Source: Oscillospiraceae bacterium MB24-C1
Lineage (GTDB): Bacteria > Bacillota > Clostridia > Oscillospirales > Ruminococcaceae
Assembly: GCA_030913685.1 (NCBI GenBank)
Contig: CP133187.1
Coordinates: 1,823,501-1,887,500 of the forward strand
Length of the DNA: 64,000 nucleotides
Reading direction: 5' to 3'
Positions 19,770-48,450 of the stretch are shown here, one piece after another. Numbering within the stretch: position 1 is the first letter of the stretch; each line of letters starts with the position of its first letter. Position numbers and translations under genes: made by a program. The notes under the pieces were generated by a model that did not search any database, was not told the DNA's origin, and saw only the letters and a list, made by a program, of their open reading frames with translations.

Positions 19770-21248
19770 CTAAAGCTGCACCGTCTTAGTTGCGATCTCC
19801 TGGCCAAAAGCACGGTCGTGCTCGACGAATAAAACGGTCGGCTGATAAGTTTTTAGCAACGTCTCTATCTGAATACGGGAATAGACGTCAATAAAGTTTA
19901 GCGGCTCATCCCAGATATATAGGTGCGCTTGCTCGCAGAGGCTGCGGGCGATCAGCACTTTCTTTTTCTGCCCAGCGCTGAAATCGCACATATCTTTTTC
20001 GAACTGAATACGGGAAAAATCCAGTTTGCGCAAAATTGCTTTAAACAGACTTTCATCAATCTTCTGCTCCCGGGCATACTCCGACAGATTTCCGGAGAGC
20101 CACGAAGCGTCCTGCCTGACGTAAGAGATTTTTAGCCCGCTGCCTCGCAAAATATTGCCTGAATAGGGAATATCCTCATTTAGAATCAGTTTCAACAGGC
20201 TGGATTTTCCAGATCCATTTGCCCCACACAGCGCAATTCTATCTCCACACTTAACTGAAAAGCTGATATTTGGACATACTATGCGCCCACTATAATGGAT
20301 GGTTACCTTTTCAAGCCCAATCAACGTTGCCGCTCGATATTCAAGCGGTTGAATTTTGAGTATTTGGGTGAATTCAATATTTTTTAAAAGCTTTGACTTT
20401 TCTTCAATAGCTGACTGCTGGCGATTTTCTAATGATTTTGCGCGTTTCATCATTTTTTGAGCCTTATGCCCGACATAACCTCTGTCGGGGTGCAGTCCAG
20501 AATTTTTAGTGGCATATTTGGTTTTTTCAACCTTATCTGACCACGACGCTTTTTGTTTGGCCGTCTGCTCAAGCCTCTTGATATGCTTTTTTAACTTGTC
20601 ATTTGTCACTTGCTCAAAGCTATCCTGTCGTTCCTTATTCTGCCACCATGACGAGAAATTCCCCTTCTGAATATCAATATCACTTTTATTAACTGACATG
20701 ATATGGTTGATACAACCATCTAAGAGTGCCCGGTCGTGCGAGACAAGAATAAACCCGCTTTTTTGCCGCAAATAGTTGCCAACTACCGCTCTTGCCTCCA
20801 TATCCAGATGGTTGGTGGGTTCGTCTATCAATAAAAAGCGGTTGTGTTTCAAAAATAGTGCTGCCAGCAAAACTTTGGTCTGTTCGCCATTTGAAAGGGT
20901 CTCAAAAGAGCGATAAAGTAAATCATCGGCAGTTTTAAGCAAATTGAGTTCGCGAACGATTTCCCATTCCTGAATATCGGGCAACATGGCAGTGATAATT
21001 TCCAGCGTTAATCGTTGTTTTTCCGCTACTTCATAGGGGAAATATTCAAATTCAACATCAGCTGAGATGCTGCCTGAAAACGGATACTTACCCATCAGCA
21101 GCTTTAAAAAAGTAGTTTTCCCCCGACCATTCCGGCCGGTAAGCCCTAGTCGCCAGTCGGTATCCAACATAAAACTGACATTCTCAAAAATATTATCGTG
21201 ACTTCCATCATACGCAAAGGTGAGGTTTTTAACATTGATTAAAGACAT
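19770..21248 (-). CDS. ABC-F ribosomal protection protein, Lsa-like
   Basis: A 492-residue soluble protein with two ABC domains and no membrane segment. N-terminal cassette: GRNGRGKTTF (Walker A), LSNGEQTK (signature), FLLIDEPTNHLDM (Walker B). C-terminal cassette: CGANGSGKSS, FSAGQKKK, LYIWDEPLNFIDV. A long charged linker (about residues 205-290) carries the antibiotic-resistance domain. The N terminus SLINVKNLTFAYDGS closely resembles Lsa proteins, which displace lincosamides, streptogramin A and pleuromutilins from the ribosome. Base composition is visibly more AT-rich than the ior/hyd genes, consistent with transfer. It is preceded by a dedicated attenuator (21249-21534). Confidence 0.9.
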   Translation of the reverse strand: MSLINVKNLTFAYDGSHDNIFENVSFMLDTDWRLGLTGRNGRGKTTFLKLLMGKYPFSGSISADVEFEYFPYEVAEKQRLTLEIITAMLPDIQEWEIVRELNLLKTADDLLYRSFETLSNGEQTKVLLAALFLKHNRFLLIDEPTNHLDMEARAVVGNYLRQKSGFILVSHDRALLDGCINHIMSVNKSDIDIQKGNFSSWWQNKERQDSFEQVTNDKLKKHIKRLEQTAKQKASWSDKVEKTKYATKNSGLHPDRGYVGHKAQKMMKRAKSLENRQQSAIEEKSKLLKNIEFTQILKIQPLEYRAATLIGLEKVTIHYSGRIVCPNISFSVKCGDRIALCGANGSGKSSLLKLILNEDIPYSGNILRGSGLKISYVRQDASWLSGNLSEYAREQKIDESLFKAILRKLDFSRIQFEKDMCDFSAGQKKKVLIARSLCEQAHLYIWDEPLNFIDVYSRIQIETLLKTYQPTVLFVEHDRAFGQEIATKTVQL

Positions 21249-21267
21249 AGTACAAATCCTCCCGTGT

Positions 21268-21311
21268 AAAAATTTTAAGCTGCAAGAAAGTTCATTTCCT
21301 GCAGCTTAAAA
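21268..21311 (-). terminator. Leader terminator of the ABC-F attenuator
   Basis: A 17-bp stem (21311-21295 with 21289-21273, one G-U pair), 5-base loop, then TTTTT at 21272-21268, ending only about 5 bases before the ribosome site (21257-21263) of the ABC-F gene. In the read-off state it would stop transcription before the gene. Confidence 0.88.
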
Positions 21312-21377
21312 TAACACGAGAAACCCAAACCGCGCATTGCGGCTTAGATCATAATATTTTAGGCGTTAAAGATGCTA

Positions 21378-21389
21378 AACTTTCTTGCA
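21378..21389 (-). promoter_or_regulatory. Antiterminator arm of the ABC-F attenuator
   Basis: TGCAAGAAAGTT (minus strand) is perfectly complementary over 12 bases to AACTTTCTTGCA inside the terminator stem (21292-21281). Its GCAAGAAA part can instead pair with TTTCTTGC in the leader ORF (21462-21455). The two pairings exclude each other, giving an on/off switch. A further stem joins 21400-21410 with 21420-21435. Confidence 0.75.
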
Positions 21390-21451
21390 TTGGCACAACA
21401 AAACAGGCGGCTCTTAGTACCGCTATTCCTGTTTTATAATGCTTTATATAA

Positions 21452-21472
21452 TTAGCAAGAAAATTTGCGCAT
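21452..21472 (-). CDS. Leader peptide MRKFSC of the ABC-F gene
   Basis: A 6-codon ORF, ATG 21472 to TAA 21452-21454, with GAGGTG (21483-21478) five bases before the start. It lies about 27 bases after the predicted transcription start. Its last codons (TTT TCT TGC) contain the sequence that sequesters the antiterminator arm, so a ribosome stalled by antibiotic here would free that arm and allow the ABC-F gene to be transcribed. Confidence 0.7.
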   Translation of the reverse strand: MRKFSC

Positions 21473-21505
21473 CTTTTCACCTCAAATCTCTATTTTCTGG
21501 TGCCT

Positions 21506-21534
21506 ATTATATCAGCACTTCAACCATTTATCAA
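21506..21534 (-). promoter_or_regulatory. Promoter of the ABC-F gene
   Basis: Minus strand TTGATA (21534-21529), 17 bases, TATAAT (21511-21506). It produces a leader of about 250 bases. Confidence 0.85.
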
Positions 21535-21550: not shown

Positions 21551-21591
21551 AAATAAAATAGCAACAGCGGCCGCATAGTTTGCGACCGCTG
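21551..21591 (-). terminator. Terminator of ilvE
   Basis: Ten-pair stem (21591-21582 with 21574-21565, one G-U pair) followed on the minus strand by TTGCTATTTTATTTT. Confidence 0.75.
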
Positions 21592-21643
21592 CAGTTTAAA
21601 CAATATACTTAGTTGTTTGTTGAAACATTGCTTTAATCAAAAC

Positions 21644-22669
21644 TCACAGTACCTTGTGAATCCAGCCTTCAGGTGCTTCGATAGTACCCATCTGGATACC
21701 AGTGAGTGTCTCATACAACTTCTTGGTAATGGGACCCATTTCTTCCATGCCGGAAGGGAAGCAGATTTCTTCACCAAAGTTGTTGATGCTTCCGACAGGA
21801 GAGATGACCGCGGCGGTACCACACAGGCCACACTCGGCAAAATCACGTACTTCGTCAAACATGACTTCGCGCTCTTCGCACTCAAGTCCAAGATAATCCT
21901 TGGCAACAATCATCAGTGAGCGGCGGGTAATGGACGGTAAAATAGAAGGAGACTTCGGCGTAACAACCTTTCCGTCCTTGGTGACAAACAAGAAGTTTGC
22001 ACCGCCGGTTTCTTCAACCTTTGTGCGGGTGGCCGCATCAAGGAACATATTCTCGGCAAAACCGGCATGCTTGGCTTCATAACCAGCATACAAACTCATA
22101 GCATAGTTTAGTCCTGCCTTAATATGGCCGGTGCCGTGGGGGGCTGCACGGTCATAGGGACTGACGGTCAGCTTAATCGGCTTAGCACCACCCTTAAAGT
22201 AAGGGCCGACGGGGGTACAGAACATCCGGAAGGTATATTCCGGAGCAGGGGCCACGCCGATAACCGGACCGGAACCGTACATAAACGGACGGATATAAAG
22301 CGTTGCACCTGAACCGAACGGCGGAACATAGGCGGCGTTATCCTTGACCAGCATATCAAGCGCCTCAATAAAACGCTCTTCGGGGAAGACCGGCATCATC
22401 AAACGGTTACAAGTATCTTTCATTCTAGCTGCATTTAATTCAGGGCGGAAAGTGACAATGCTGCCGTCCTTGGTTGTGTAAGCTTTGAGCCCCTCAAAAC
22501 AGGTCTGCGCATACTGAAGCACACCGGCAGATTCATTCATAGTAACGTTCGAGTCAGAGACCAACTGTCCTGCATCCCATTTTCCGTCTGAATAAATCGA
22601 TACATATCGGCTATCGGTGGGAATATAGCTAAATCCCAGTGAGCCCCAGTCTATATTTTTTTTCTCCAT
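21644..22669 (-). CDS. ilvE: Branched-chain amino acid aminotransferase
   Basis: A 341-residue fold-type IV PLP enzyme that transaminates leucine, isoleucine and valine with 2-oxoglutarate. The PLP lysine is in GHIKAGLNYAMS (about residue 188), followed by EETGGANFLFV and the phosphate-binding TRRSLMIVAK and GTAAVISPVG. Length and motifs match the BCAT (EC 2.6.1.42) type rather than D-amino acid aminotransferases. ATG 22669 has AAAGGGG. It is monocistronic with its own promoter, and leuA lies 24 kb away. Confidence 0.95.
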   Translation of the reverse strand: MEKKNIDWGSLGFSYIPTDSRYVSIYSDGKWDAGQLVSDSNVTMNESAGVLQYAQTCFEGLKAYTTKDGSIVTFRPELNAARMKDTCNRLMMPVFPEERFIEALDMLVKDNAAYVPPFGSGATLYIRPFMYGSGPVIGVAPAPEYTFRMFCTPVGPYFKGGAKPIKLTVSPYDRAAPHGTGHIKAGLNYAMSLYAGYEAKHAGFAENMFLDAATRTKVEETGGANFLFVTKDGKVVTPKSPSILPSITRRSLMIVAKDYLGLECEEREVMFDEVRDFAECGLCGTAAVISPVGSINNFGEEICFPSGMEEMGPITKKLYETLTGIQMGTIEAPEGWIHKVL

Positions 22670-48149: not shown

Positions 48150-48450
48150 CGAAAAAAATCCTACATCTTTCATTTGAAAGACGTAGGATTAATTACTCCT
48201 GCGCGGTACCACTCTCATTCATATCACAAAGGATATGCTCCTCATCGGGTACGGATCGGTTTTACGATCTTATACCCTACCATTGTAACGGGCGGATACC
48301 GTCTGCATCTACTTTGAGCATCGTGTGCTTCATTTCGGGCAGCTGCTTGGAGGCGAGTTCAGATAGTATGCTGCACCGTCTCACATCAACCGACGGTTTT
48401 CTGTAGTCAGCAAAAGATCTTACTGTTCCTCTTCATCGCATTTTAAATAT
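48150..48450 (-). promoter_or_regulatory. T-box leader of leuA (leucine specifier CTC)
   Basis: A tRNA-sensing leader. The T-box sequence TGGTACCGCG is at 48211-48202, the specifier loop holds CTC (48357-48355, in TGAACTCGCC), matching leucine, and a terminator stem (48190-48177 with 48170-48157) ends in TTTTTTT at 48156-48150. Uncharged tRNA-Leu would pair with CTC and, through its NCCA end, with the T-box, to prevent the terminator. Confidence 0.93.

Follow-up and report, generated by a model that had tools for sequence, protein, structure and literature searches.

The minus strand of the single 2.95 Mb contig of Oscillospiraceae bacterium MB24-C1 carries a gene for an ABC-F ribosomal protection protein behind a leader with a six-codon uORF, MRKFSC. 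The question raised by this locus is how such a leader controls the gene, and whether the peptide or the RNA that encodes it is what matters. An earlier note on this DNA had described a complete ribosome-mediated attenuator and proposed that the leader peptide is its stall sensor. The locus was analysed in a stretch of 64,000 nucleotides (the window, to which all coordinates refer) and compared with its relatives. The gene seems very probably to stand under a ribosome-controlled transcription attenuator to which a second, translational lock is added.

The gene (19770..21248, minus strand, as for all features below) codes for an Lsa-like protein of 492 residues, identified by profile and homology searches and by the conserved Lys244. 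It scores 482 bits against the NCBI ribosomal-protection ABC-F model NF000355 (cut-off 380) and 739 bits against the NCBI curated Lsa model NF000167, just below the cut-off of 750, hence the name Lsa-like. The best relative of solved structure is Lsa(A) (7nhk, E 1.2e-123), and the plasmid-borne Lsa(E) is 62.8% identical over the full length. Mutation of Lys244 nearly abolishes the resistance conferred by Lsa(A), whereas Phe257 is dispensable (PMC8196190); the Lsa-like protein has Pro at the position aligned to Phe257. A tree of the proteins places Lsa(E) and Lsa(B) inside the group formed by the window's protein and its homologues. Genomes of the same genus (loci L084 and L085) hold only a more distant ABC-F gene, its uORF being MRQ*, an indication that the gene was gained or replaced within the genus.

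A sigma-A-type promoter, TTGATA-17-TATAAT with an extended -10 TG (21506..21534), agrees with the consensus at 11 of 12 positions and lies about 30 bases past the terminator hairpin (21592..21564) of an upstream branched-chain aminotransferase-like gene (21644-22669). The uORF, ATGCGCAAATTTTCTTGCTAA (21452..21472), reads as six codons and TAA, and short uORFs stand at the same place in relatives. Its Shine-Dalgarno (SD) motif GAGGTG (21478..21483) precedes it by five bases, in a context, GGAG-TGAAAAGATG, that is conserved in 30 aligned loci. Within the coding sequence lies arm 1, AAATTTTCTTGC (21455..21466), recognised by its 12-bp helix with arm 2 and by co-variation. Arm 2, TGCAAGAAAGTTT (21377..21389), is supported by folds, exact complementarity and co-variation; its partner would be arm 1 in the repressed state and arm 4, in the terminator, in the induced one. 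In the computed fold, the uORF SD, the start codon and arm 1 face arm 2 and the bases following it in an anti-antiterminator hairpin, P1 (21356..21487), made up of the helices 21487-21484/21359-21356, 21482-21478/21365-21361, 21476-21469/21375-21368, and 21466-21455/21388-21377. P1 is capped by an apical hairpin (21393..21442; fold and alignment). The 3' strand of this apical stem, CTGTTTTGTTGTGCC (21393-21407, alignment columns 105-119), stands directly before arm 2 and is conserved; it may be an RNA polymerase pause.

Arm 2 is separated from the terminator by a spacer hairpin of 12 bp, P3 (21322..21350; fold), the sequence of which is not conserved. The intrinsic terminator (21268..21312; fold and alignment) consists of an 18-bp stem with one G-U pair, formed by arm 3 (21312..21295) and arm 4 (21289..21272), and of U5. 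The alignment gives 11 consensus stem pairs, nine of which are changed on both sides. An extension of 8 bp, UCUCGUGU (21321..21314) with ACACGGGA (21267..21260), lengthens the hairpin to 21260..21321 and covers most of the SD of the ABC-F gene, GGGAGGA (21257..21263, read from the sequence). The consensus promoter, the MRKFSC uORF with its own ribosome site, and the terminator just ahead of the SD had all been described in the earlier note and are borne out; only the length of the stem, then given as 17 bp, has to be corrected.

The 252-nt leader has an MFE of -98.3 kcal/mol vs. a mean of -56.7 in 200 shuffles (z -10.25), none of which was as low. The three-way match of the arms arose in 1 of 100 shuffles of the window locus alone; the case that it exceeds chance rests far more strongly on conservation than on such single-locus shuffles. 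Bases 21389..21378 of arm 2 (TGCAAGAAAGTT) are exactly complementary to 21292..21281, that is, to the terminator loop and 3' strand, and the same arm pairs with the uORF, so that the two partners claimed for it earlier are both real complements. The pairing with the uORF, put at 8 bases, proved to be longer: the MFE helix has 12 bp (21466..21455 with 21388..21377), and beyond it further helices of 8 bp and 5 bp include the start codon and SD of the uORF. Folding of the minus strand in two states, proposed in the earlier note as a check, gave the expected alternatives. The MFE structure of the free leader is P1 plus the terminator, and with the ribosome-covered segment deleted and the 3' end placed at the U-tract, the antiterminator becomes the MFE structure.

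Base-pair probabilities were also computed for the growing transcript with the ribosome at one of two positions: stalled at the start codon, which leaves the RNA unoccupied from +17 onwards, or at the stop codon, which does so from +30. Without a ribosome, the pairing of arm 1 with arm 2 is 0.89 and that of arm 2 with arm 4 is 0.00, with the terminator formed. When the uORF is occupied, the computed probability that arm 2 pairs with the loop and 3' strand is 0.89-0.99 for 3' ends from 21288 to 21274. At the U-tract (3' end 21268) this pairing is 0.49-0.66 vs. 0.16-0.25 for the terminator strand, a measure that includes loop bases and therefore cannot exceed 0.50. The complete leader, gene SD included, favours the terminator/SD hairpin at equilibrium, even if the uORF carries a ribosome. 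Since the equilibrium returns to the terminator and SD lock once the SD is transcribed, antitermination would have to be kinetic. Arm 2 captures bases of the loop, and as these are transcribed earlier than the 3' strand, the antiterminator could start ahead of stem closure. In the full leader the gene SD is paired at a computed 0.76-0.85; the 8-bp extension, hiding most of it, would thus serve as a translational lock too.

Within the family, 198 genomes were searched for homologues and 71 gave a match; further homologues came from one genome per GTDB species, and the upstream regions were fetched. According to the record titles, the GTDB-wide matches are in Oscillospiraceae, Lachnospiraceae, Evtepia gabavorous, Candidatus Oscillibacter, Peptococcaceae, and others. 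In 80 of the 89 homologous loci, the leader has a short uORF with an SD, chosen by eye from the SD and its position, 140-465 nt ahead of the gene; five of the 89 (L031, L042, L052, L063, and L064) have no recognisable uORF. The uORFs have 2-7 codons, six being the commonest length (46 of 80). A search for MRKFSC-type leaders ahead of other Lsa genes, as had been suggested, was productive: MxxFSC is the commonest leader among the relatives, the majority read MxxFSC or VxxFSC, and MYNFSC precedes lsa(E). Other leaders are MxxISC, MxxTSC, MRNISR, MRRISR, MIYISR, LRHLSW, LRITA, and MRKELC, and still others stop early (MF*, MRN*, MRK*, MRQ*, MRR*, MKR*, MIR*, and MRI*). The uORFs of 2-4 codons (MF*, MRN*, MRK*, MRQ*, MIR*) retain the RNA arms. 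When the switch was computed for 76 loci, the probability of arm 4 being paired upstream was 0.02 in the free leader vs. 0.18-0.21 in the stalled one, with a majority flip in 14-17 loci, modest values that are partly due to the automatic choice of terminators, some of which were picked wrongly. A search for the leader pattern in 394 genomes of the order returned 10 matches. Five are true leaders, all of them before Lsa-type ABC-F genes, and the other five are chance matches in different contexts; the reversed pattern, run as a control, gave four. Within these 394 genomes, MxxFSC-type leaders preceded no other type of gene.

The arms change together from locus to locus. The uORF of each locus was compared with its own downstream stretch and with those of other loci by permutations over local helices, used instead of a strict 8-mer arm search that missed many loci. 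For arm 1 with arm 2 in 77 non-redundant loci, the score is 23.46 with the own stretch vs. 18.00 across loci (permutation sd 0.35); none of 10,000 permutations, which remove the relatedness of the loci only in part, reached the own value (best 19.46). The 36 loci without the consensus TTTCYTGC behave similarly (22.90 vs. 16.24, sd 0.51, 0 of 10,000, best 18.62), and with a decoy stretch placed 45 nt upstream the scores are 15.78 vs. 15.25. For arm 2 with arm 4 the values are 21.70 vs. 18.57 (sd 0.35), or 20.78 vs. 18.30 in the loci without the consensus (sd 0.51, best of 5000 equal to 20.35). In a MAFFT alignment of 30 loci, 89.6% and 90.2% of the cells are paired in the two helices, neither covariation score is matched in 500 shuffles, and sliding a partner by one column lowers the pairing to about 50-60%. 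RNAalifold, run without an input structure, returns exactly the arm 1:arm 2 helix and the terminator, 13 of the 20 pairs showing kept double changes. A scan for the best helix from -14 to +40 places it at +14..+16 in 14 of 16 leaders of 2-4 codons and in 37 of 64 leaders of 5-7 codons, where about half is expected by chance. The position in the longer leaders does not clearly exceed chance because P1 often extends through the SD, and so a fixed arm position is not claimed for all loci.

Codon usage in the uORFs points the same way. Cys is encoded by TGC in 53 of 54 cases and Ser by TCT or TCC in 58 of 58, as compared with 60% and 40% in the genes; the P values, 4e-11 and 4e-24, assume independence, and relatedness makes both too small. 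Arg at codon 2 is written with five synonymous codons (CGC, CGT, CGG, AGA, and AGG), while codons 4-6 are limited to those preserving the RNA arm. The protein tree joins MRN* and MRNFSC as sisters (98% SH-aLRT), and in it MF* falls within a 99% clade that contains MYNFSC and Lsa(E). As the arms co-vary, truncated leaders keep the arms, and the Ser and Cys codons are near-fixed, FSC is best read from these sequences as mainly the coding image of arm 1 and not as a peptide sensor. A preference for amino acids or for start-proximal features at codons 2-3 is possible and would fit start-proximal stalling.

Attenuators with a uORF are an established kind of control for ARE-ABCF genes, and their logic has been proven experimentally for vmlR (PMC9226507) and cplR (PMC10201436). 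The leader of vmlR from Bacillus subtilis, with the uORF MIN, resembles the window's in having a uORF in an anti-antiterminator hairpin, an antiterminator, an intrinsic terminator, and a lock on the ribosome site of the gene. Its trigger is stalling during initiation, and variants of the uORF sequence still function (PMC9226507). The toeprint of the initiating ribosome on vmlR is at +16 (PMC9226507); with a ribosome placed in the same way on the window's leader, most of arm 1 (+7..+18) would lie underneath it. The differences are that the tripeptide uORF of vmlR lies in a bulge, the arm sequences are unrelated, the organism belongs to Bacilli, and the SD lock is a separate hairpin, SL-4, instead of the terminator base. 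In the case of cplR from Clostridioides difficile (uORF MR[I/M]; PMC10201436), a 5' hairpin sequesters the uORF, which likewise starts with MR, and a terminator hairpin sequesters the gene SD too, both layers being active. The cplR leader acts with pleuromutilin/lincosamide/streptogramin A (PLSA) drugs, the class proposed here for the window's leader. However, cplR belongs to another ABC-F branch, its arms differ, and its uORF has three codons, whereas the window's runs on through the RNA arm. Other uORF-controlled ARE-ABCF genes with a PLSA/LSAP response are lsa(A), with MAGN (PMC10201436), and are5sc and tiaA, with MLV and MVGDDDISG (PMC12421871); these peptides differ from MxxFSC, a class that is not mentioned alongside them in the accessible parts of the two papers.

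The window's locus shares with vmlR and cplR an ARE-type ABC-F gene downstream, a short uORF with its own ribosome site, an intrinsic terminator with mutually exclusive antiterminator and anti-antiterminator, and, by computation, a sequestered gene SD. These features argue for the attenuator architecture originally proposed for it, and its placement as a widespread member of the ARE-ABCF uORF attenuators is well supported. A literature search found none of MRKFSC, MRNFSC, MYNFSC, or MINFSC named as a peptide, nor a description of an lsa(E) attenuator, papers on the lsa(E) cluster included. Most subscription journals lay outside its coverage, so this silence is weak evidence of novelty. The earlier note knew of no such design for this peptide; the peptide indeed has no match in the literature found, but the leader is no singleton, being common in this ABC-F family and present before mobile lsa(E). 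New here are the explanation of the conserved peptide by an RNA arm and the connection with lsa(E).

Three other explanations deserve consideration. Attenuators of the trp and his type also combine a short ORF with a terminator and an antiterminator, so the leader might be an amino-acid attenuator or another metabolic riboswitch, sensing, e.g., Cys-tRNA or Phe-tRNA via the FSC codons. This is extremely improbable: the FSC codons are dispensable, all five true leaders of the pattern search precede Lsa-type ABC-F genes, and an Rfam search of the window found no leader family at gathering score at the attenuator site, although the same search detected a T-box. That T-box (48174-48445, minus strand, RF00230, 102 bits) is the sole Rfam match in the window. 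Control might instead be mainly translational, with the hairpin masking the ribosome site of the gene and termination playing a minor part, as the sequestration of the SD by the terminator extension and the two active layers of cplR (PMC10201436) would allow. Yet the conservation of the U-tract terminator right before the gene in most loci, and the position of the lsa(E) terminator about 150 nt ahead of that gene's own SD, make a mainly translational mechanism rather unlikely.

The third explanation is the one closest to the sensor role given to the leader peptide in the earlier note, namely nascent-peptide arrest, in which the FSC end and a drug in the tunnel make the ribosome stop at one defined codon, in the manner of ErmCL, and the RNA arms are secondary to the peptide. 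It accounts for MxxFSC being the commonest leader, and the conservation of codons 2-3 (Arg, Asn/Lys) with synonymous variety suggests that some preference for amino acids or for the vicinity of the start may exist. We nevertheless consider such arrest quite improbable. Amino acids at an ErmCL-like arrest site do not appear to be conserved for their own sake: leaders of 2-4 codons exist, the endings ISR, LSW, ITA, ELC, and VTC come with matching changes in the arms, near-fixed Ser and Cys codons would be unneeded under a peptide constraint, and truncated leaders lie beside full-length ones in the tree. Furthermore, PLSA drugs stall ribosomes early and with little context dependence (PMC10201436). 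The specific sensor role of the peptide is thus not upheld, and by analogy start-codon-proximal stalling by PLSA drugs is the likelier signal.

The mechanism that we infer, including the translation of the uORF, the drug, the stall position, the kinetics, and the resistance function, would be as follows. In the absence of drug, the uORF would be translated and the ribosome released, or the uORF would fold away; arm 1 would take arm 2, the terminator would form, and transcription would end ahead of the gene. Any readthrough RNA would have its ribosome site masked by the terminator extension. With a PLSA drug, the ribosome would be held at the first few codons of the uORF and arm 1 (nt +7 to +18) would be covered. 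The freed arm 2 could then capture the emerging terminator loop and 3' strand, so that both the terminator and the SD lock would fail and the ABC-F protein would be made.

The same attenuator is found upstream of lsa(E). On plasmid pEfae-HEB2-2 (L105:1100-1500), the uORF ggaggtggaagaATGTATAACTTTTCTTGCTAA (MYNFSC) is accompanied by the arm GCAAGAAAGTTAAG (also given as GCAAGAAAGTT) and by the terminator GAGCCGTAAGAATTTACTTTCTTGCGGCTTTT. Unlike in the window, this terminator does not end directly before the gene, and a remnant-like stretch lies between the two. The computed switch is cleaner than the window's, the antiterminator at the U-tract reaching 0.95-0.98 in the stalled and 0.00 in the free state. 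At least 80% of the 401-bp upstream region is present in 102 plasmid records; any match at all is seen in 111 records, and in 110 of these the identity is at least 99%. A few lsa(E) copies retain only the last part of the region; one natural copy, on Enterococcus raffinosus pF162_2_2 (L111), shares just the last 87 bp, so that the attenuator is absent there. Lsa(E) groups with a protein from a Clostridiaceae MAG (L039), 75% identical and likewise preceded by MYNFSC (99% SH-aLRT, quick tree method). A Paenibacillus urinalis plasmid (L106) has the same arms and terminator with a uORF that reads MDRM* or a start-stop ATGTGA, perhaps a minimal uORF. The leaders of lsa(B) (L107) and of a Priestia homologue (L108), MIY*/MIN*, have another set of arms (GGATTAGTC / GACTAATCC) and resemble MIN of vmlR.

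Taken together, we lean towards an attenuator family that is widespread in Clostridia and has so far gone undescribed, where the RNA arm, and not peptide sensing, dictates MxxFSC, uORFs shrink to as few as two codons with the switch kept, and lsa(E) was acquired from a clostridial lineage together with its switch. That Lsa(E) has as its neighbour in the tree a clostridial protein whose leader is likewise MYNFSC indicates what kind of donor the gene was mobilised from. The natural series of leaders, from 2 to 7 codons, offers direct material for testing RNA against peptide, and it warns that a leader peptide found conserved in a uORF search can owe its conservation to RNA pairing instead of peptide sensing. 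In general, it is predicted that many gut Clostridia, as well as the enterococci, Listeria, and staphylococci that carry mobile lsa(E), make PLSA protection only after contact with the drug, and that resistance tests performed without induction could read too low.
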